Assembly (NCBI GenBank): GCA_021373255.1
Contig: JAJFTD010000031.1
Span: forward strand, 1 to 33,931
Origin: a bacterium
Lineage (GTDB): Bacteria; Armatimonadota; UBA5829
Reading direction: 5' to 3'
Length of the DNA: 33,931 bases
Shown here: positions 14,170-26,558 of the stretch, one piece after another
How positions within the stretch are numbered: position 1 is the stretch's first letter
How the letters are laid out: each line of letters begins with the position of its first letter
Translations under genes and position numbers: made by a program
Notes under the pieces: model-generated
Told to the model about the DNA's origin: nothing
What the model saw: the letters and a program-made list of their open reading frames with translations, nothing else
Database searches by the model: none

Positions 14170-14634
14170 ATGGAAGTCCAGGTCAAGAGCCCTGCGTTTA
14201 GTGAGGGCGATTCAATACCAGATAAATATACATGCAATGGAGATGGAATGTCCCCACCTATTCAGTGGGATGTGCCGGGAGATAACGTTCAAAGCTTCGC
14301 TGTAATCTGCGAAGATCCCGACGCCCCGACCGGCGTCTTTACTCACTGGGTTGTATATGATCTACCACCGGATGTGCATGAACTTTCGGAGCGCGTCCCA
14401 AACGAAGACAAGTTGCCTAACGGCGGCGTGCATGGCGTTAACAGCATACACAAGACCGGGTATCTGGGGATGTGTCCTCCCAAGGGCACTCACCGATATT
14501 ATTTCAAAGTCTTTGCACTAGACAAAAAACTCGACCTTGCTCCCGGCGCGGGCAAGAAAAAAGTCGAAGATGCGATGCAGGGCCACATCGTTGGAGAAGG
14601 AGAGTTGATGGGCACCTACGCCCGTAATAGGTAG
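14170..14634 (+). CDS. YbhB/YbcL-type phosphatidylethanolamine-binding-like protein
   Basis: The 154-residue protein matches the bacterial PEBP family: VKSPAFSEGDSIPDKYTCNG, the ligand-site motif CEDPDAPTGVFTHWVVYDL, then GYLGMCPPKGTHRYYFKVFALD. It lacks a signal peptide and so is cytoplasmic. The cellular role of this family in bacteria is poorly defined. The ATG at 14170 has TAGGAGGG 10-17 bases upstream, which fits better than the GTG at 14149 that lies before this site. It is monocistronic. Confidence 0.95.
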   Translation: MEVQVKSPAFSEGDSIPDKYTCNGDGMSPPIQWDVPGDNVQSFAVICEDPDAPTGVFTHWVVYDLPPDVHELSERVPNEDKLPNGGVHGVNSIHKTGYLGMCPPKGTHRYYFKVFALDKKLDLAPGAGKKKVEDAMQGHIVGEGELMGTYARNR

Positions 14635-14687
14635 TCTCTATTGCTCAATGTGAAAATGTATAGATCCTGCTCTTAATGGGCCTCTGC

Positions 14688-14716
14688 TTGAAACAGTTGA
14701 GCTTAGGTGGTAGCAT
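14688..14716 (+). promoter_or_regulatory. Possible sigma-70-type promoter
   Basis: TTGAAA (14688-14693), a 17-base spacer and TAGCAT (14711-14716), with the ribosome site (AAGGGGG) just downstream. The leader would be very short. Confidence 0.4.
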
Positions 14717-14739
14717 TCTTTCGTAAGGGGGAATCTACC

Positions 14740-15300
14740 ATGGAGATAGTTCGCACGGTCTTTCAGAATGCCGAGTCCAGGGATGGATCAGGTGTGGGGC
14801 CAAAACTTGTTATTGTTCTGGATATGGGCCGGGAAATGGGCATGAATACTGCCGATATTCCCGGCCTTGCGCATAAGATGGAAATGGCGCTCCCCGGTAT
14901 ATTCCCTGATGAAGGCAGTCCATATTTGCACACATGCGGAGGGCAGAGCACTGGTATTGAGGTACACTCTTTTCGTGATGAGATCAAGCAAGGTACCGAT
15001 ATTCCACATCTGCTGGAACACGTGCTGCTGCACCTGCTCAGCCGCCGTACCAACCATTGCTCGGCTTATTGCGGTCAGCGCGCGACTGATCTTGATAGAG
15101 GCATCACCACTCATTACTATCTCGTAGTCGACTGTCCTTCGAGGATAGAGGGTATTGTCGCAGCGGACTTGGCGTATAATCTCGTTACTTCGTGGATCGA
15201 CAACAGCGCACTCGGCATTGATCCCGCTGCATACTTAGACGGCATCCGCGCCACGCTTGAGCCTATGATCGGCTTCATGCCAAACAACGCGCATCTATGA
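14740..15300 (+). CDS. Stand-alone domain resembling the N-terminal domain of cyanophycin synthetase
   Basis: The 186-residue protein carries the features of the CphA N-terminal region. An ALPGIFPDEGS segment near residue 45 is followed by an LLEHVLLHLLSR helix whose His and Glu-His match the GHVIEHVALEL helix of cyanophycin synthetase. Then comes a strand TTHYYLVVDCPSRIEG and an AADLAYNLV helix that parallels the EY.....AA..A segment. The ATP-grasp and Mur-ligase domains of CphA are absent. It has no signal peptide. The function of the isolated domain is unknown; substrate binding or regulation is a guess. The ATG at 14740 has AAGGGGG 9-15 bases upstream. It converges on the dehydrogenase gene with only a few bases between. 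Confidence 0.6.
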   Translation: MEIVRTVFQNAESRDGSGVGPKLVIVLDMGREMGMNTADIPGLAHKMEMALPGIFPDEGSPYLHTCGGQSTGIEVHSFRDEIKQGTDIPHLLEHVLLHLLSRRTNHCSAYCGQRATDLDRGITTHYYLVVDCPSRIEGIVAADLAYNLVTSWIDNSALGIDPAAYLDGIRATLEPMIGFMPNNAHL

Positions 15301-17152: not shown

Positions 17153-19423
17153 ATGTTGCAGGTAACGCAAAGTCGGGCATGGTGGCTGTGCTCGTTGGTT
17201 ATTGGAATATTTCTGCTTGGCGGTCTGAATAGTGTGTGGGCGGAACAGCATGAATTTGTTGAGTCACCCGTGCCGCTGGGTTACCCTGACGAGCAGATCA
17301 TCTGTCCCACAAAAGGCACCGTTACCTACACGCTGAAAATCAACGGTCAGGACGTCACGCACAATGAGGGCACGACTGTTACCACTATTGCTAATGTGCA
17401 AGCCAGCCTCACCCTTACAGGTGCAGAAACCTCTGTCAAGGAAAAGGGATCGTTTAGTGGTACCATAACGCATTCCCTAGTTGATTCCGAAGGCAATAAA
17501 TCGAAGGTTGTACAGACTATCAATACCACCGAAACCAATACTCTTCCTATCGTTGAAGGTGGCCTGATGGGTCTGGTTGGACGAGTGGCAGTGAGCAAGA
17601 AGCTCAGCCTGGCCTGTTTTGAGGTTACGGAACCGAAATGGAGCATTACCGATGGCGACACGACTGAAGTTGCCACTGCGAATGGCCACAGCGTCACCAG
17701 CCATGGCAGCGCTAATCTTTCTTTACGTGTTCCCTATTATGCTGAGACCCCTGGCACGGCATTTGCCGGTTTTGCTAATAAGGCTGAGTCAAGCGGAATC
17801 GGAAGCTCCGGTACTTCACTTTCTTTTATTGAGGGAGGCGTTTTTGAGACGACGTGGCATAACGGGGGCAGCAAGGGCAATATGTCTGTGCCTGTGTTGG
17901 CCTTGGTAACGGTTGGGGGTGCGATGGTAAGCACGCAGCCGGCGATCAAATCGCAGTGGGGGGATGCTATGAACCAGTATCCCCTAATCCAGGGAACGCT
18001 CACTATTAACTGGTCGATCGGTAATGTGCCGCTGCAGCCTAAGATGACCATTGCCCCGGTAACGCCTGAAATATATCAGAAGTGGGTGCCGGTGCCGCGT
18101 ATGAAAGACAACCCCAACAACATGTATGGTGTGCCTATGCCGTTGGGGATCGTAGCTGAGCTCAAGTCGCAAGAGAAGGGAAAACCTGCACCACAGGGGC
18201 GCATCGACTTTTACCTTACCGATGTTAGCACGAATAAAGGGCGCTGCTGCAATTATCCGCGCGATGTGAGCAAGAAAGACGACTTGTGCTTTGCTGATGA
18301 GCAGGCGGAGGGAATCGTTATCGATCCCAATGATCCCAAGCATGCCTATACAAGCGAACGTGTGTCGCTGGCTGCGGTGATTGTTGAAGCCACCGACTGC
18401 GGCGCCTACGGCCGGGTGAAAGCGGTGTGCGATGAGCTCAACGAGACGGCTCAAGACGAGGCCACCGGACGGCCGAGCCTGTCTATACCGCGTGATGAGA
18501 ACAACAACCACGTCGCTGATGCCTGGGAGGAAGAGCAGGGCATACGCAGCTACAACGAGGATTGGGATGAAGAAGAAGTTGCGGGACAGGAGATAAAAGG
18601 CGATGGCCTTTCTTTATATCGTGAATACCGCGGCTTCGTGGTTCTGAACGGGTCTTCTCTAATCCATAAGCGCCTTTCTCCTCGTGATAAAGACTTGTTT
18701 GTCATCGACGAGGGTAACATTTTTGACACACAGCTCTGGAAGCAGGCTTCCGGCATTACCGCTTATCGGCTCAATAACGAGCTTGTGTTCAACCGGGGTG
18801 GACTCACGATAGATCGCATTGTCGACTATAAAATGGGTGAGCCGAGTGGTTATCACAAGTATGCTGTACGGTTGACCACAGAGCCTGGGCTAGAAGACTC
18901 TGATAACATCAGACCACAGCATAATATCTATGGATACTGCAACAACAGTTCCAGCCCTGAAGACGCTGATTACACAAAGATCTTTCCCGCCCGCCTGCGC
19001 GGATATATTGACAGGATATATACACTCCTCGATCACGCTTTGAATCGACCGGGCTCAGACGAAGATAAGCGCCTGCAAGCATCCGGTATTCCGCGCTCCC
19101 TGGCTCAGCAAGCGTTTTCAATGATGGGTGAGACCACTCGCGAGCAACTGGTGCAGCAAATGGTCACCGTCTGCGCCATACACGAGGTCGGTCATGCCTG
19201 CGGCTTGCCGGGGCATGAAGTAGTGAACGATGACGGCAGCAGCAGTGAAAGTTCCGAGGGTTGCAAGTCATGTCCGATGCGTTATCCGGATAGTCCTAAT
19301 GAGCTCGATCTCGGTATCCTGCAGGTACTTTTCAAGAACAACGCACCACTGCCGCTGCAATACAACAGCTTCTGTAATGATGAAAGATACAATTGTCGCA
19401 AGAAGTTGAATGTGAAAGACTGA
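17153..19423 (+). CDS. Secreted metzincin-type zinc metalloprotease
   Basis: The 756-residue protein has a signal peptide (hydrophobic core 11-26, likely cleavage after VWA). A large region of mostly beta structure follows. A calcium-binding-like segment, DENNNHVADAWEEE, lies near 440-455. The C-terminal catalytic site is the metzincin signature HEVGHACGLPGH at 677-688 (His677, Glu678, His681, His688), and CPMRYP at 707-712 fits the Met-turn. Paired Cys residues (704/707; 747/752 region) suggest disulfides outside the cell. Substrate unknown. The ATG at 17153 has GGGAGAGAG just upstream. It converges on the exported-protein operon and may act in the same envelope process, by inference. Confidence 0.85.
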   Translation: MLQVTQSRAWWLCSLVIGIFLLGGLNSVWAEQHEFVESPVPLGYPDEQIICPTKGTVTYTLKINGQDVTHNEGTTVTTIANVQASLTLTGAETSVKEKGSFSGTITHSLVDSEGNKSKVVQTINTTETNTLPIVEGGLMGLVGRVAVSKKLSLACFEVTEPKWSITDGDTTEVATANGHSVTSHGSANLSLRVPYYAETPGTAFAGFANKAESSGIGSSGTSLSFIEGGVFETTWHNGGSKGNMSVPVLALVTVGGAMVSTQPAIKSQWGDAMNQYPLIQGTLTINWSIGNVPLQPKMTIAPVTPEIYQKWVPVPRMKDNPNNMYGVPMPLGIVAELKSQEKGKPAPQGRIDFYLTDVSTNKGRCCNYPRDVSKKDDLCFADEQAEGIVIDPNDPKHAYTSERVSLAAVIVEATDCGAYGRVKAVCDELNETAQDEATGRPSLSIPRDENNNHVADAWEEEQGIRSYNEDWDEEEVAGQEIKGDGLSLYREYRGFVVLNGSSLIHKRLSPRDKDLFVIDEGNIFDTQLWKQASGITAYRLNNELVFNRGGLTIDRIVDYKMGEPSGYHKYAVRLTTEPGLEDSDNIRPQHNIYGYCNNSSSPEDADYTKIFPARLRGYIDRIYTLLDHALNRPGSDEDKRLQASGIPRSLAQQAFSMMGETTREQLVQQMVTVCAIHEVGHACGLPGHEVVNDDGSSSESSEGCKSCPMRYPDSPNELDLGILQVLFKNNAPLPLQYNSFCNDERYNCRKKLNVKD

Positions 19424-19425
19424 CC

Positions 19426-19449
19426 GGGTGAGGCTGAGAGGCCTTACCC
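19426..19449. terminator. Hairpin between convergent operons
   Basis: Stem GGGTGAGGC (19426-19434) / GCCTTACCC (19441-19449) with one G-T pair and a six-base loop. Its right arm covers the stop codon of the minus-strand gene. Confidence 0.55.
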
Positions 19450-20559
19450 CTTAGTCACTTCACCGTGAATAAACGTCTTGCTCCAGGTGTCGATGGATAT
19501 GCCCATTCTCTTGCCCACGGCGCACTTTTCGATTCTCTCGGCAAGCTCGTTTCGATACTCGGCGTTGACGTAGACGTTGAGCTCCAGCACACCGTCGGAA
19601 TAGCGCTGCCTTTTTACGCGTGATACTCCTGCGAGGTTCTTTAGCGCGTCTTCCAGCCTTTTGGCTTCCGTTACGCCATCAAACCCGCCGATCTTTACGC
19701 TCACAAATGGTGTCATTTGAATGGGAGCGATCAGGATGTCTTTTGCGATAATCGCTCCTGCCTTTGCACCAAGGCCCTTCGCGCAGCGTGCGGCGGACAG
19801 TTTCTTGCTCTGGTCAATGGCATCTAGGGACGCATCAGTTACGGATATGATCTCGCCTGTGTCTGTGTAATAAGCCCGGGCGTCTATCCGGCCGCGTGAT
19901 CTGAAGAACTCTATCCCGCCCTGATCATCGCTGTCTACATTGCTTACGCTCAGCTCGCCGGCTATTATAATATCGACATTATACTCACGGCCGATAGCCT
20001 GCAGGGCTGATGGGTCACCATCTCCGGCCCGTGCCGCCATTTCGTCCTGTATAAGCTGTTTCCTTCGAGCTTCATCAATCACACGGAAGCCGGAGAGCAT
20101 CAGCTCGCGCGTGATTGCAGCCTCTGCTGAGGTGTCAGTTACCAGCACACCCACCTTCCACTCATGCGTAAGCCCAAGTTCTTTCAGCTTCTCCACCAAC
20201 GGCCGGTTGCTAACCGAAGCTCGTATGGTCACTTTAAGAATGCCGCCGCTGGTCTTTGATGAGATAACTTCATTCAGCTTTGCGAACCCACTTGCCTTGA
20301 GGAATATCTCGTCGCTTACTACTTGGTAATCGCTGCCCACAGTGGTAGCGTCTACATATACTCCTGCCCCTTTCATCACAGCGTTTCTGAGCGCATCGGC
20401 GATGGCTTTCTCTCTCGCGCCAGTCTCCGATGCAGGCGCCTCACCTTCGGCTTCGACCACTGTAAACTCCGCCGGGTGCTTCTCTTCGATTGCGATGGCG
20501 CTCGTTACCGATCCTGCCATCATCGCTGCTATGCACAATGCAATAATTATTGCCTTCAC
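19444..20559 (-). CDS. Exported FlgT/LPP20-like protein
   Basis: The 371-residue protein has a signal peptide (VKAIIIALCIAAMMAGSVTSAIA). A domain near 30-120 matches the FlgT N-terminal/LPP20 pattern: VVEAEGEAP, AREKAIADALRNAVMKGAG, SGFAKLNEVISSKTSGG, LKVTIRASVS. The middle part (KVGVLVTDTSAEAAI, NVDIIIAGELSVSN, ARAYYTDTGEIISV) recalls the CsgG/LpoB-type fold. The C-terminal 90 residues form an alpha/beta domain (VKIGGFDGVTEAKRLEDAL). FlgT-like folds help assemble envelope structures; there are no flagellar genes here. The GTG at 20559 is chosen: GGGGGG lies upstream and the previous gene stops 2 bases before it, implying coupled translation. Confidence 0.8.
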   Translation of the reverse strand: MKAIIIALCIAAMMAGSVTSAIAIEEKHPAEFTVVEAEGEAPASETGAREKAIADALRNAVMKGAGVYVDATTVGSDYQVVSDEIFLKASGFAKLNEVISSKTSGGILKVTIRASVSNRPLVEKLKELGLTHEWKVGVLVTDTSAEAAITRELMLSGFRVIDEARRKQLIQDEMAARAGDGDPSALQAIGREYNVDIIIAGELSVSNVDSDDQGGIEFFRSRGRIDARAYYTDTGEIISVTDASLDAIDQSKKLSAARCAKGLGAKAGAIIAKDILIAPIQMTPFVSVKIGGFDGVTEAKRLEDALKNLAGVSRVKRQRYSDGVLELNVYVNAEYRNELAERIEKCAVGKRMGISIDTWSKTFIHGEVTKG

Positions 20560-20561
20560 TG

Positions 20562-22388
20562 CTATTGCCCCCCATCCGCCGGAACCAGCGACCGCCGCAT
20601 AATGTCCGTCACTGCCTTCTCGCACGCCATTCTGAATGCTTCCGATGCAATTGTCAGGTCGCTTATAGTGGGCAGGGACGCGGGGGCAGTGGGGACATCT
20701 GGTTGGTTACCCTCGCCGCGCACGCTTACGTGGTCAGACGAGTAGCGATCTTCGCGTATCTCCTCACCCTCGATCGGGCATGTGAAGAGCACTCTTCCCG
20801 CGTCCTCAGAATCGACCGCATTCAGATCATATATCCGCAGATTGCCGGTGATTCTAGCACGTTGAATGGCATTGATGGACACTTCCCAGTCCATCTCGTG
20901 GTCATATCGACTGTTTTCATAATCTCGTTTGTCATGCTCCCAACGGTCCATGGCATCGCTGTAATCATCCATATTGCGACGCCATTCCCGGTGATCACGC
21001 TTGAACTGTGGGTCATTCCTACGGCTGCCGTCTACTTCCGAGTACCTGTGCCCGCCGAACAGGCCGAACTTACGCTCATCAGGGTCCGGCTCCGAGGGCT
21101 TTGAGGGTTGGGGTTGGGAGAATGAAGGGTAGGTTGGTGTGCAGCACTGGGGCTGGTTCACAACGTAGCTGGTCTGAGTATCGATAGCGGCCAAGTCCAC
21201 CACTGCCAGCGCGCATCCCGTTCCCACCTTGCGGCGCAGACTCGCAATGTCGCTGGTGTCCAGAGTGCCGTCTTTCTCGTGCATCAGCGCCGTGTAGACC
21301 AGTTCCTTGAGGTCCTGTCGACTCACGCACTGAAAACCGGTCTTGTTTGCTAGCGCCGTGGTCATCTTCCCCGCCAGGTCATCGACAGCCGATTCATCGG
21401 CATTGTCCCTGTCACCCGCACGTGCTATAACTATCATCTCGCGATAGCTGCTGAGGTTGGCGAACTCACTTGTAGTGAATGTTTGCGGTATCGACTCAAT
21501 TGATGAATATTGATTCAACGCCATCTTTAGGTGTCGCTCTGATGGAGCCACGACGACTGATACCGTCTGCCAATCACCCTCCGAGCTTTGCACTGACTGC
21601 CGTTCGGCGGCCCAGCAATGGGTGCTTGCCTCTCCGTCGCACCAGGATTCCACATCATCCGGCAGGTCTTCCAACACCTGGCCCGACTTCGCGTCTAATT
21701 GTGCATGGTTCAGCAAGAAGAGCACATCGGTCTCAGGATCTAACTCATCGATCTTACCGTCAGATGGTACAAAATCCCAATCAATTGTATCCTTGCCCGG
21801 TTTCGACTGCCGAGTCACCCAGTCCTGTGCCACCTGCTTGCCCACGTTGGAGACTATGCGAAGTCGCTTAACGCGATATCTATCGAGTATACTGCCGCGC
21901 TCGTCCAAACGAAGCCCACCCAGTTCCGAGCCGCACAGCCGCTCCAGTTCCCATTTCAGCCATTTCTCATTAGGGGCGCTTATAAGTATCTCCCACGCAT
22001 TCTTGTCGGCAGCTTTTTGCGCGTAGAGGACAACTTGATCAGGATCAATAGCGGACATTTTGCAGGGGAGCAGTCGTTCTTCTTCGCGAATCACCCGCCT
22101 GGCTTTGCTGCGGTCGATTATGTAAAGTATGCTCTCGCCATCTTTGAAGCCGCTCTTGTTTACTAACAGTTCAGCTATAGCTATTGGCTCATCGGTTTTC
22201 AGCCTCAGATCGAAGAGGAACTTGCTGAGGGAGTCTTCTTTTTCAGTGGTCACCACATGAATTTTGTGCTCATTAAGTATCCGCGATATCGTGACCGCAC
22301 CCTTTCGCGCCCACGCGCACGATACCTGCAGCATCAGGCACATGCATAGCATCAGCGTTCTCATTACCCACACCTTGCGAGTACACAT
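20562..22388 (-). CDS. Large exported protein of unknown function
   Basis: The frame is 608 residues, with a signal peptide beginning MRTLMLCMCLMLQVSCAWA at residue 9, so the ATG at 22364 (600 residues) is the likelier start; it has AAGGTG at a usable distance. The first half is a mixed alpha/beta region without known motifs. Around 305-425 lies a domain with IVIARAGD and the helix DDLAGKMTTALANKTGF, resembling CsgG/LpoB-type modules (ALAVVDLAAIDT). A Pro-rich linker is followed by a charged Tyr/Asp/Arg-rich helix (440-500). The C-terminal ASEAFRMACEKAVTDIMRR is typical of such envelope proteins. It is coupled to the FlgT-like gene and follows the FecR/propeller gene after about 110 bases. 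Confidence 0.7.
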   Translation of the reverse strand: MCTRKVWVMRTLMLCMCLMLQVSCAWARKGAVTISRILNEHKIHVVTTEKEDSLSKFLFDLRLKTDEPIAIAELLVNKSGFKDGESILYIIDRSKARRVIREEERLLPCKMSAIDPDQVVLYAQKAADKNAWEILISAPNEKWLKWELERLCGSELGGLRLDERGSILDRYRVKRLRIVSNVGKQVAQDWVTRQSKPGKDTIDWDFVPSDGKIDELDPETDVLFLLNHAQLDAKSGQVLEDLPDDVESWCDGEASTHCWAAERQSVQSSEGDWQTVSVVVAPSERHLKMALNQYSSIESIPQTFTTSEFANLSSYREMIVIARAGDRDNADESAVDDLAGKMTTALANKTGFQCVSRQDLKELVYTALMHEKDGTLDTSDIASLRRKVGTGCALAVVDLAAIDTQTSYVVNQPQCCTPTYPSFSQPQPSKPSEPDPDERKFGLFGGHRYSEVDGSRRNDPQFKRDHREWRRNMDDYSDAMDRWEHDKRDYENSRYDHEMDWEVSINAIQRARITGNLRIYDLNAVDSEDAGRVLFTCPIEGEEIREDRYSSDHVSVRGEGNQPDVPTAPASLPTISDLTIASEAFRMACEKAVTDIMRRSLVPADGGQ

Positions 22389-22499
22389 AGGCCACCAGTC
22401 TCCCTTCTCCTCTTTATTATACCAATAGACGTAATGATCCTTGTGATGTGACCTGTAAGGCGTGCATAAGTGAAATCTTGAGCAAAAATGTTATAGGTA

Positions 22500-25400
22500 C
22501 TACTTTTCGGTGGAAATAACCTGCCCGTTCTTATCTATCCATCCGTTTGTGCAGACCTGCCTTGTCTGTAGCACGCGCACAGTGCCGAAAACTCGGAATC
22601 TGCAACTTGGCTCAAGCTCATAGACTTCTGCCTCATTTGGTTCTCTTATCAGAAAATTGAGGCCATAAGGCCCGAATGATCCCCACTGCCCACTGGTTTT
22701 GACTTTAACATTGAACAGTAATCTTGCGGGTTCACCATCGATGGTTTTGTAGTCGGTTACCGGAATGCCGGCTTCATATTGAGCGATAGCCCGGCAGAAC
22801 TCCAGTTCTTCCTCTGCGTCTTTGACATCATCCGCAGGCAAATTGCCCCAATCGACGTTACCAACGGCATCTATGGCACGTGCAATGCTTCCCCTGTCTG
22901 TTGGGAGGCTGAACTCTGTATTCGTGATAATACTTCCGGTTGGCAAGAGCTTTGCTGTTCCATGAACCTCATATTTATCAGCAAACTTGTGATAGATGAT
23001 GGTCAGTGGTTCGTTACCGAAATTTTCGAATGCATATGGTGTGCCATAGACTCTTCGGCATGCGCCGGTTCCACTGTTGGCCATAAGCATTTCGACCATA
23101 TCCGTATTCATCCACTCTTCCCATACACAACGCTCTGATGGATGCAAAGGACATCTCAGGATAACGTCACCAACAATGGGAGATTTTCCTGGAGGAGGCG
23201 GTGAATAGATATATGACGTGGGTCTGTGTCCCTTCATGCCTGGGCATTGAAAGAGCATCTTCACACGTTCCGTATCACTGCATAACAGCGAGCTAGTCTG
23301 CCACCAGGGCAACCTCAGGGAATCCTGCTGCAGTGTCGCTATATCCTGTGGAAAAACATGACTCGCGTGAATGGATGTATATAAAACATGCGAAAGAGCA
23401 GCCATACGATCATGACAGGCTTCTTCCAACATTTTATCATCCGATTCGCCAGCCAGCTTAATGGCGGCATCAGCATATCGGAGTGTATCATCCGTACCCA
23501 GGCCAGACAACGGGTAAGCCCATACCAACTGCGCGAATAAATTAGCGGCGGACCTAAAACTCTTCCTACTCTCTGCCAGGTTGCCATCATATCTATAATC
23601 ACAACCCGCGATATAGCGTAAGGCGGCTTCATAAATTGCCGCGCGCGCTGCATCGGTTTGGGCTTGGATTTCGGGTGGGAGCTTGATGTCCTGCTGTTTA
23701 CTGTCGCCAAACACCTCTCTGGCACCCGATCCGTCCGCCGAAACCAACAGCGTTTTTGGCTTCCTGTCATGAATTGTAACGTATACTGCATCTCCGGATT
23801 GAGCCCAAGAGTATGCCTCTACATTATAATCTGCCAAGATATCCTTGTGATCGCTGCCGTCAGCGTTTACTATACTCAAGTGCCTATCTCGCGCCTGATA
23901 CAGAATGCGTGTACCGTCAGGAGACCATCTTGGATTTACCGCCCCTTCATCACTGCTGAGCGAGACTTTTAGGGGCTTGGCCTTGGAAGCAAGATCGAGC
24001 ACATAGATATCGCCGCTTAGGGGGACTCCGTAGCTCCAACAGTCGCACTTGGTGAAATTGCCGCTATAGGCGATCTTCTTGCCATCAGGCGAAAAACAGG
24101 CGCCAGCGCCGTTGATACCAAGATTACGTATCTGTCCGGTCACTACATCTATTATCACCAGATTGTGGGCGACAGTATATTCCTGACCTGACGATATAGC
24201 AATATACCGGCTATCGGGACTCCATGCAGGAATAGTGCTGATCTCTCCACTCAGGAGGCGGGTCACTTTGCCTATCGTCCTATCGCAAACATACAGACCA
24301 TAGTCACAACTCTTGTTTCCGGCGTCTTCATGACGATACGATCCGGAAAGAGCCACGAGAGAAGGATCCGGCGCAATGGCCACATAACATCCCCCGAGAC
24401 CTTCAGGGGAATTATCATAGAAAGGCAGACTCTGCCCCGTGGCGGCATCCAACAGTAATCTCCAGCTCCCATCGCGCGCTATCTCTCTGCGCCTATCAGG
24501 ATCGCTTGAGTCAGGCGTCACATACAAACCATCAATCTTGACGCTAAGCAGCCGCTCACCCGGCTCCCACGTCCCCAGGATGCACGCGCCAATGAAGCTT
24601 CTTACTCTGTGTTTGTCGCTGCCGTCGGATTTCATCATCCAGACTTCAACCAGTTCGTCTCCTCGCTGGACCGTATATGCGAGGTCTCCGAAATCGGACT
24701 GATAGTCGCCGCGACCAAGATACCAAGAAGTCTCTTTATAGGCATTGACATGCACTCCTGACCGCGGTGGACGATACGCAACCATCAGCGAGCGATTACC
24801 TGCGTCCACAAGCGCACTACCATGCCGGTTAGAAAGCTCGACTTTCCCTTCGACTACAGTTACAGCAACAGTGTCTCTTCGAACGACTGTATTTACCACA
24901 GTGCCCAGCAATCGGACTCGGCCGGCGGGTGTATCGATACGTGCTATTTCCTTATCACGGTTGCTGCAATAGAGTCTGCCACGATTGGTCGCTGCGACAT
25001 TATTTGAAGTAAATGTAAGCGTGCTGTTTGAGTCGAGATGAAGCTCGCTTCCTTTGCGGGTTACTAAAGTTATTCGACCGCTTTTTCCAGTTTTTACAGA
25101 TGCGCCGACAGACAGCCTGTCGCCCATCTTTAGAGCTTTGCCCGCGCCGTCGGTAACCGGCTGTTGAACAGAAATAACCGCCACAATCGGCTCTGCAAAC
25201 TGCTTCGCCAATATCGGCTTGATATTCGATGCCGGATTAGCAGATAGAGCTTGATGCTTTATTGCACTGCTGTTTTTCTGAACCGGCAGCCGGATTGCAA
25301 CATTATGCGGATAATTGGAACCGTGTTGAACGGTTTCTATAGGCTTGTTGGTTGGAACCGGAGTTTTCACGCCAGTTGCAATGTTGTTATGATGCGAAGG

Positions 25401-25637
25401 CGTGTTAGGGTTTTCCATTACAGAATAGATGAAATACCATACCAGCAAGGATATAACAAATACTGATGCAACTCCAGCGAGATTTGCAACCCAGCGAGTT
25501 TTTTGTGTTCGCTGACGAGCAGCAACGGCCGATCGGCTTTGATCTAGCAACTCACGGCGATACTCATCGCTCATTTCGATTGCGTAGTAGCTCTCGCTCA
25601 AAAGCTCAATTGGGTCGGTTTGATGGTTTCTATTCAT
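22500..25637 (-). CDS. Membrane-anchored FecR/beta-propeller protein, probable anti-sigma or sensor
   Basis: The 1045-residue protein has a cytoplasmic N-terminus of about 48 residues (EYRRELLDQSRSAVAARQ), one membrane helix (50-72), and a Pro/Asn-rich linker. A FecR domain spans about 150-285 (MGDRLSVGASVKTGKSG, DTPAGRVRLLGT, VTVVEGKVELSN). TolB/WD40-like propeller blades follow at about 300-630 (PAWSPDSRYIAISS, CFSPDGKKIAYSG, PRWSPDGTRILYQ). The C-terminal region has Cys pairs (FQCPGMKG, RCPLHPSERC). Its ATG at 25637 overlaps the sigma gene stop by 8 bases with AAGGTG upstream. FecR proteins control ECF sigma factors across the membrane, which suggests this is the partner. No zinc-binding anti-sigma motif is seen in the N-terminus. 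Confidence 0.85.
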   Translation of the reverse strand: MNRNHQTDPIELLSESYYAIEMSDEYRRELLDQSRSAVAARQRTQKTRWVANLAGVASVFVISLLVWYFIYSVMENPNTPSHHNNIATGVKTPVPTNKPIETVQHGSNYPHNVAIRLPVQKNSSAIKHQALSANPASNIKPILAKQFAEPIVAVISVQQPVTDGAGKALKMGDRLSVGASVKTGKSGRITLVTRKGSELHLDSNSTLTFTSNNVAATNRGRLYCSNRDKEIARIDTPAGRVRLLGTVVNTVVRRDTVAVTVVEGKVELSNRHGSALVDAGNRSLMVAYRPPRSGVHVNAYKETSWYLGRGDYQSDFGDLAYTVQRGDELVEVWMMKSDGSDKHRVRSFIGACILGTWEPGERLLSVKIDGLYVTPDSSDPDRRREIARDGSWRLLLDAATGQSLPFYDNSPEGLGGCYVAIAPDPSLVALSGSYRHEDAGNKSCDYGLYVCDRTIGKVTRLLSGEISTIPAWSPDSRYIAISSGQEYTVAHNLVIIDVVTGQIRNLGINGAGACFSPDGKKIAYSGNFTKCDCWSYGVPLSGDIYVLDLASKAKPLKVSLSSDEGAVNPRWSPDGTRILYQARDRHLSIVNADGSDHKDILADYNVEAYSWAQSGDAVYVTIHDRKPKTLLVSADGSGAREVFGDSKQQDIKLPPEIQAQTDAARAAIYEAALRYIAGCDYRYDGNLAESRKSFRSAANLFAQLVWAYPLSGLGTDDTLRYADAAIKLAGESDDKMLEEACHDRMAALSHVLYTSIHASHVFPQDIATLQQDSLRLPWWQTSSLLCSDTERVKMLFQCPGMKGHRPTSYIYSPPPPGKSPIVGDVILRCPLHPSERCVWEEWMNTDMVEMLMANSGTGACRRVYGTPYAFENFGNEPLTIIYHKFADKYEVHGTAKLLPTGSIITNTEFSLPTDRGSIARAIDAVGNVDWGNLPADDVKDAEEELEFCRAIAQYEAGIPVTDYKTIDGEPARLLFNVKVKTSGQWGSFGPYGLNFLIREPNEAEVYELEPSCRFRVFGTVRVLQTRQVCTNGWIDKNGQVISTEK

Positions 25638-26259
25638 AGCTATCACCTTCGGTGCTGCCAAGCAGCCGGTTGAATGCCGAACGAAACGAAGCGCGCGCTC
25701 TCACTAAAAGAGACTCGGCTGCCTTCGGGGAACTCTGAATCCGTTGAGCCAGTTCGTCCGTTGTATAACCCTCGACATATTTTGCAATCAGAGCTGCAGC
25801 TTGCCGTTCCGGCAGGCAGGCGAGAGCGCGGTTGACCACATCCTGCATTTGCACTTTATCCGATAGGCCGGAGGACGTGGATTCCGAATCGGAGGATTGG
25901 TCGACAAAATCGGGGATGAGAGGCAGCTCGATACGGCGACTGCGACAAAATCTGGCAAGGCGATTTCGCGCCAGACCATGCACCCATGCGTCAAGATCGC
26001 CGCGCTTGGGATTGAATTTCCCAATGCTTTTCGCGGCTGTCAATATTATATCGGAGCACAGGTCTTCGGCATCCGCATGGTTTCGACCCAAGTGATAATA
26101 AGCGAAGCGGTACGCCCAGGACGAATAGCGGTCAAAGAAACGATCCCATGCATCCGTGTCCCCTAGCCCTATCCTGTGTGCCAAGGCTTCATCGGCTTCA
26201 ATTGTATCCACGCTTCCGGCGATGCCTCGCTGCTGGTTCAAAGTCACTTCGATCTCCAA
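25630..26259 (-). CDS. ECF-type RNA polymerase sigma factor
   Basis: The 209-residue protein has sigma region 2 at about 35-105 (DAWDRFFDRYSSWAYRFAYYHL, ADAEDLCSDIILTAAKSI, DLDAWVHGLARNRLARFCR). A Ser-rich linker precedes region 4 at about 145-200 (LPERQAAALIAKYVEGYTTDELAQRI, KAAESLLVRARASFR). It should direct RNA polymerase to its own regulon, normally held inactive by the overlapping membrane gene. The TTG at 26259 is preferred: GAGG lies 9-12 bases upstream, whereas the GTG at 26268 overlaps that site. Two TATAAT boxes lie upstream on the minus strand near 26330-26385, without clear -35 boxes. The gap 26260-26558 holds no gene. Confidence 0.9.
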   Translation of the reverse strand: MEIEVTLNQQRGIAGSVDTIEADEALAHRIGLGDTDAWDRFFDRYSSWAYRFAYYHLGRNHADAEDLCSDIILTAAKSIGKFNPKRGDLDAWVHGLARNRLARFCRSRRIELPLIPDFVDQSSDSESTSSGLSDKVQMQDVVNRALACLPERQAAALIAKYVEGYTTDELAQRIQSSPKAAESLLVRARASFRSAFNRLLGSTEGDSYE

Positions 26260-26558
26260 TGGATGCACCTCGGCTTTTGGTCATTCATGGATAAGTTGCC
26301 ATTGGAGGTAGAAAATCCCTCGGTGATATCAGTATTTATCGTAGGTAATTATATCAGGCACTCACATAGCCGCATTATATTGATCGTTCTGCGGTTGAAT
26401 AATCAGCTTTTGCCGACATAGTGTTTAGTCCTCAGTGTGAGTCTTCAATGGATCATTTTCTCCGTCTTGCCTCCGAGATGACAAAGGTTACGCGAAGAGA
26501 CCACATGCATTTTCATTACATCAGGATAGCCTTTGGTCGCACCTGCGTAAAAAGCCAG

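Follow-up and report, generated by a model that had tools for sequence, protein, structure and literature searches.

A candidate autoregulated ECF sigma factor/FecR-propeller operon in Armatimonadota and a C-terminal domain shared with other ECF-linked membrane proteins

Introduction

Extracytoplasmic function (ECF) sigma factors tie the cell exterior to gene expression, although both the sensing part and the promoter are obscure in most of their groups. In this study, we analyzed an Armatimonadota contig (JAJFTD010000031.1 of assembly GCA_021373255.1; C91 in our numbering), whose entire 33.9-kb length (positions 1 to 33,931) is hereafter called the window and which belongs to a draft genome of 4.19 Mb in 201 contigs. 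An initial annotation, made from the sequence alone, had grouped five genes of the window into one candidate envelope-sensing system: the genes for an ECF sigma factor, a membrane protein with a FecR domain and a propeller, two exported proteins and a facing secreted metzincin. The present report deals mainly with the first two of them. Other genomes, contigs and loci are referred to by our own handles (G, C and L numbers) where they need to be told apart. Domains were searched for in Pfam, NCBIfam and PDB, and structures were analyzed with AlphaFold and Foldseek.

Results

The ECF Sigma Factor and Its FecR-Propeller Partner

The open reading frame (ORF) calls returned the same five frames on the same strands as initially annotated (Table 1).

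Table 1. Genes, domains and the candidate regulatory element in the window.
Feature	Position	Strand	Remarks
Candidate autoregulatory ECF promoter, GAGGGATTT-N12-GGCAACT	26294..26321	(-)	-35 GAAGG, 16-nt spacer, -10 GGCAACT
ECF sigma factor	25630..26268	(-)	212 aa as called; Pfam Sigma70_r2 and r4_2; start from leader comparison
FecR/TolB-like propeller membrane protein, putative anti-sigma factor	22500..25661	(-)	1053 aa from TTG; 1045 aa from ATG 25637; FecR and PD40 in Pfam
Predicted cytosolic N-terminal segment (~58 aa) and single transmembrane helix	25413..25661	(-)	Conserved LLxxxYExxxMxDxYRxxLLxxTR; alignment and transmembrane prediction
FecR domain, residues 189-275	24837..25097	(-)	PF04773, E 6.5e-9
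TolB-like PD40 beta-propeller, residues ~320-650	23712..24704	(-)	PF07676; TIGR02800 partial match; Foldseek
Helical stretch and Cys-containing linker, residues ~655-855	23097..23699	(-)	AlphaFold helices 663-803; conserved in G004, G018, G034
C-terminal shared domain, residues 857-1053	22503..23093	(-)	No Pfam match; recurs in other ECF-linked membrane proteins
608-aa exported protein, not in the sigma module	20562..22388	(-)	Present without sigma/FecR in G001, G003, G005, G013
FlgT_N-type exported protein (393 aa), not in the sigma module	19444..20625	(-)	Adjoins the 608-aa gene in G001-G004
Secreted metzincin-like protein, not in the sigma module	17153..19423	(+)	Homologue with 68% identity on C55 of G004, where the context differs

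The sigma factor consists of sigma2 (Sigma70_r2, PF04542, residues 45-112, E 1.7e-14) and sigma4 (r4_2, PF08281, residues 145-193, E 4.1e-11) only and lacks sigma3, which fits an ECF sigma factor. As the initial annotation stated, its gene overlaps that of the membrane protein (i.e., its last position is 25630, with the following ATG at 25637). At the other end of the gene, positions 26259-26290 (-) resemble the N-terminus MNDRKPRC of the G004 orthologue; in G002 they contain a stop, and in the window their frame is not that of the sigma factor gene. Because this MNDRKPRC-like sequence is out of frame in the window, it is probably an untranslated leader, and the true start of the sigma factor is probably the TTG at 26259, which follows the Shine-Dalgarno sequence GAGGTG, rather than the GTG at 26268.

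A profile built from five orthologues detected the sigma factor in 8 of 291 Armatimonadota genomes from five families, where it shared 54-65% identity with that of the window. In all eight, a FecR-propeller gene lies directly 3' of the sigma factor gene, which it mostly overlaps and otherwise abuts, so that the sigma factor has a candidate cognate regulator adjacent to it in every genome in which it occurs. The two genes are a real unit, which is conserved and built like an ECF sigma factor plus a membrane regulator. A contig scan with a single protein as query gave no match, and with an alignment as query it gave five metagenome-assembled genomes, all of them from Armatimonadota. One of the five, UBA5829 (DJHI01000023), appears to be G002, a genome of the same genus as the window, because L070 and G002:C188 are the same in sequence.

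Both the FecR domain and the propeller (PD40, PF07676, E 1.8e-12) that had been proposed for the membrane protein were recovered by Pfam, and the proposed length of 1045 residues extends to 1053 when the TTG is used. The members compared are 36-47% identical to that of the window, and the FecR domain is the most conserved part of their alignment. The propeller partially matches the TolB model TIGR02800 with a score far under the curated cut-off, and its best Foldseek matches are TolB, with a low-confidence model as query. A single transmembrane helix is predicted at about residues 56-83, leaving about 58 residues that would be cytosolic, and every member tested has one such helix about 50-80 residues from the N-terminus. 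Within the N-terminal segment, the conserved YRxxLLxxTR was likened to the ASDI helix by eye alone.

A Candidate Promoter Upstream of the Sigma Factor Gene

An unbiased footprint search, which covered every 6+6 word with a gap of 8-18 nt in six independent 160-nt upstream regions, returned exactly GGATTT-N12-GGCAAC with a total of 3 mismatches over the five other sequences, compared to at least 15 (mean 17.8) in 60 dinucleotide shuffles. With up to two mismatches and at fixed spacing, the family consensus, GAAGGATTT-N12-GGCAACT, is found upstream of the sigma factor gene in seven of seven readable genomes; the corresponding region of G002 is a run of N. It ends 32-40 nt before a start codon that is preceded by a Shine-Dalgarno-like sequence. 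Given that the 12 bases between its halves are not conserved, that the regions vary from 42 to 72% G+C and that it keeps this placement, the element reflects constraint rather than mere relatedness. When up to 3 mismatches were allowed, it also ranked first among the matches in each of the seven whole genomes, and the exact pattern occurs only once per genome in G004, G034, and G237. In the window, the only other match has 3 mismatches and lies inside the FecR gene.

The same type of conservation was found in a second ECF group, whose anti-sigma factors are of the zf-HC2 plus RseB-like type: CGAACC-N17-GACATA is perfect upstream of the sigma factor gene in three genomes (L156 of G005, L029 of G022, and L030 of G020). 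With its textbook-like ECF layout, this element provides a positive control for the footprint search.

The spacing of GAAGGATTT-N12-GGCAACT is promoter-like, and its sequence, especially the -10-like half GGCAACT, is unlike the common ECF boxes. Together with a small inverted repeat that the first half can form in G034 and G048, this would suit a site for another regulator, or a leader or RNA element, with the sigma factor being controlled from elsewhere. The inverted repeat is, however, not kept in G000, G018, and G055; the 16 nt between the halves and the distance to the start codon are compatible with a promoter; and the element of the second ECF group is similarly placed. We consider this alternative unlikely. 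To judge from the conservation of its upstream sequence, the sigma operon probably regulates itself, using a new ECF promoter.

Among other sites, two next-best ones of G000 were rejected as targets, as a long antisense frame runs across L126 and a 384-aa frame includes L136. A 2-mismatch element in G018 (L132, G018:C293:19888-19915) precedes, by 152 bp, the long ORF for a 1236-aa exported protein, which is encoded next to the sigma factor; this element is a possible second target that is too weak to claim.

The FecR domain also raises the possibility of a FecIRA-type system, in which a TonB-dependent receptor encoded elsewhere would use its N-terminal STN domain to signal to the FecR protein. 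Plug domains of TonB-dependent receptors are present in seven of the eight sigma-bearing genomes. No receptor gene was, however, identified adjoining the operon, and the STN and Plug matches listed were never on the same contig in these eight draft genomes; no FecA-like transducer was seen. Moreover, fecIR is driven by sigma-70 and controlled by Fur (PMC9249621), whereas the operon of the window is apparently autoregulated. We give this possibility hardly any credence.

A C-Terminal Domain Shared Among ECF-Linked Membrane Proteins

The C-terminal ~195 residues of the membrane protein match no Pfam model. A profile of this domain found matches in 8 of the 291 Armatimonadota genomes, in ECF-linked, solo and secreted contexts. 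In G005, G020, and G022, the domain ends a membrane protein that has an N-terminal zf-HC2 domain and an RseB/LolA-like part and is encoded just downstream of an ECF sigma factor gene. A similar protein of G237, which lacks zf-HC2 and whose gene overlaps an ECF sigma factor gene, ends in a weak partial match. The sigma factors at these other loci share 22-26% identity with that of the window; among the three from G005, G020, and G022, the identity is 49-57%. Exported solo copies of the domain are found beside the sigma/FecR operon of G004 and G002.

Across the sigma/FecR family, the core of FecR domain and propeller is constant and the tip is exchanged: the shared domain is found in G000, G004, and G002, TPR plus F5/8 type C domains in G034 and another end in G018. 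Such an exchange is the trace that we would expect from a changing input. From the proteins in which it recurs, the domain looks like an input domain common to different anti-sigma factors. The C-terminus had also been described as Cys-rich, which is mild at most, as only one Cys is invariant in the domain.

Two further observations concern relatives of these genes. In G004, two exported Cys-Pro-rich DUF305/DUF4142 proteins are encoded one on each side of the sigma/FecR/solo-domain operon (L022:8885-9646 and 14438-15136 (-)). G052 encodes a secreted propeller protein (L025:9358-11310 (+)) that resembles the outer part of the FecR protein and ends in a partial C-terminal domain; it has no FecR domain, transmembrane anchor or sigma factor gene.

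Three Modules at One Locus

In the initial annotation, the sigma factor was suggested to drive the assembly of an envelope structure from the two exported proteins, and the metzincin was linked to them by position only. The same-strand order sigma-FecR-608-393 and the lack of a strong terminator in the ~112-bp gap, which makes read-through possible in the window genome, favor such a system. Separate searches with each protein in 61 genomes revealed a different picture in the relatives. In G004, which belongs to the same genus, the FecR-propeller gene (C39, 20530-23712), the exported pair (C47, 29901-32839) and the metzincin-like gene (C55, 31346-33580) are on three contigs; in G001 and G003, also of this genus, the pair is present without a relative of the FecR-propeller protein or an orthologue of the sigma factor. 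The scan of the window found the element that is linked to the sigma factor neither upstream of the pair nor upstream of the metzincin-like gene, a shared promoter for these two modules was likewise not found, and the 608-aa gene faces other genes in relatives. Thus, the neighborhood is not conserved, neither the proposed control of the pair by the sigma factor nor the link of the metzincin to it is borne out, and the five genes are three modules, i.e., sigma/FecR, the exported pair and the metzincin-like gene. We give little credence to a single five-gene system in which the metzincin takes part; the pair and the metzincin-like gene are probably neighbors of the operon by chance here, with transcription possibly continuing from the operon into the pair in this genome.

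The pair is a real unit of its own, because its genes are adjacent in G001-G004 and fused in G054. Both proteins, like the metzincin-like protein, have hydrophobic signal-type N-termini, and the 393-aa protein matches FlgT_N just above the Pfam cut-off (E 1e-6, 29.6 versus 28.8 bits), in agreement with their description as exported and, for one, FlgT-like; a flagellar role is not implied. The 608-aa protein had no noteworthy match in Pfam, NCBIfam or PDB, and a profile comparison of the two detected no mutual relationship. The fusion in G054 is a 1401-aa frame (L089:4163-8365 (-)) containing relatives of both proteins and a copper amine oxidase N-terminal-like domain, and its arrangement suggests that the pair works together. 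A fixed couple of genes, labeled PaaK-like and ACT-like here, is encoded divergently from the 608-aa gene in G002, G003, G004, and G013; in G003 and G004 its products have 435 aa and 138 aa. In the genome of the window, the best homologue of the 435-aa protein (77% identical) is encoded on C98, followed by that of the 138-aa protein, without the exported pair. To judge from this gene order, the pair appears to have changed neighbors in the lineage of the window. The upstream regions of the pair had no common footprint (13 mismatches versus a shuffle minimum of 12).

The facing protein is called metzincin-like because HExxHxxGxxHH is present in distant relatives, of which one also has a CPM Met-turn. 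In the window and in G004, the motif (HEVGHACGLPGH, residues 677-688 in the window) has its third His one place late. In the window protein, CPM follows the motif, and the best family match is archaemetzincin with E 0.18. Of its initial description as a secreted metzincin, the signal-type N-terminus and a metzincin-like motif stand and the family label is weak; a promoter scan found no sigma-70-like promoter for it upstream of the gene, where one had been proposed.

Discussion

The operon anatomy, its conservation, the promoter-like element and the shared C-terminal domain, all obtained by computation, are best accommodated by an autoregulated two-gene ECF signaling operon with a membrane anti-sigma factor that senses outside the cell, which we regard as likely. 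From GAAGGATTT-N12-GGCAACT, the sigma factor would drive transcription of the operon that encodes it. The product of the second, overlapping gene would cross the membrane once and hold the sigma factor by a cytosolic N-terminus of ~58 residues; its outer part would comprise the FecR domain, the TolB-like propeller, the helical stretch and the exchangeable C-terminal tip. An extracytoplasmic ligand or partner might bind the tip or the propeller and thereby change or expose the protein; the sigma factor would then be freed, by proteolysis or a conformational change, to amplify its own operon. The topology outside the membrane, the binding of the sigma factor, the signal, the release and the sign of regulation are what we infer, with binding, release and signal modeled on the behavior of FecR and RseA-type regulators (PMC9249621, PMC7406223).

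Several observations weigh against this interpretation. The cytosolic N-terminus has no anti-sigma domain in Pfam, and it could act as an activator, as FecR does in part. The sigma/FecR homologues of G018, G034, and G237 lack the C-terminal domain. Rather than a promoter, the element may be a conserved site for a regulator, and among the next-best genome sites no convincing second member of the regulon was found. The AlphaFold models are poor, with a predicted local distance difference test score (pLDDT) of 51 for the full-length protein from 6 sequences and of 35 for the C-terminal domain alone; given these values, no fold is claimed beyond that of the propeller.

As a kind, an ECF sigma factor with a membrane regulator is known; what is new is, above all, the C-terminal ~195-residue domain. 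In the open papers searched, we found no match for the combination of FecR domain, propeller and shared tip, for the promoter sequence or for the tip domain, and no matching paper on FecR with WD40 and ECF or on ECF sigma factors of Armatimonadetes. We tentatively entertain, at somewhat less than even chances, that the domain is a sensory one not described before, that it has moved among unrelated ECF/anti-sigma pairs in Armatimonadota (i.e., of the FecR-propeller and RseB-like types) and that the sigma factor represents a new ECF group with GAAGGATTT-N12-GGCAACT as its own promoter code. The locus provides a whole ECF unit with a precise promoter candidate in a barely studied phylum, the recurrence of the domain in different ECF-linked membrane proteins hints at where the signal may enter, and the tempting five-gene story is probably that of a chance neighborhood.

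Among known systems, FecI-FecR for iron citrate in Escherichia coli, in which FecR is a class I anti-sigma factor of group AS243 (PMC7406223), shares with the unit described here an ECF sigma factor gene followed by that of a single-pass regulator with a short cytosolic N-terminus and the FecR domain outside. In the window protein, the FecR domain (PF04773, E 6.5e-9) likewise follows the single transmembrane helix. The unit differs in its added propeller, helical stretch and C-terminal tip, in having no FecR_N (DUF4880) match up to E 1 in Pfam, in having no FecA-type receptor adjacent to it or found in the genomes, and in its apparent autoregulation in place of sigma-70. The RseA/RseB-type and zf-HC2 anti-sigma factors are similar to it in their overlapping sigma/anti-sigma genes and single transmembrane helix, and the zf-HC2 plus RseB-like proteins of G005, G020, and G022 also in their C-terminal domain; the window protein, however, has neither a Pfam match to zf-HC2 nor an RseB-like part, and the sigma factors are as divergent as described above. 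In ECF57, WD40-like C-terminal extensions are fused to the sigma factor itself (PMC8999054). ECF57 thus likewise ties an ECF sigma factor to WD40-like repeats, which in the window belong to a separate membrane protein, in its predicted extracytoplasmic portion. Finally, TolB has the same PD40/TolB-like propeller, whereas the window protein is predicted to be anchored in the membrane and to combine this propeller with a FecR domain and an N-terminal segment on the side of the sigma factor.

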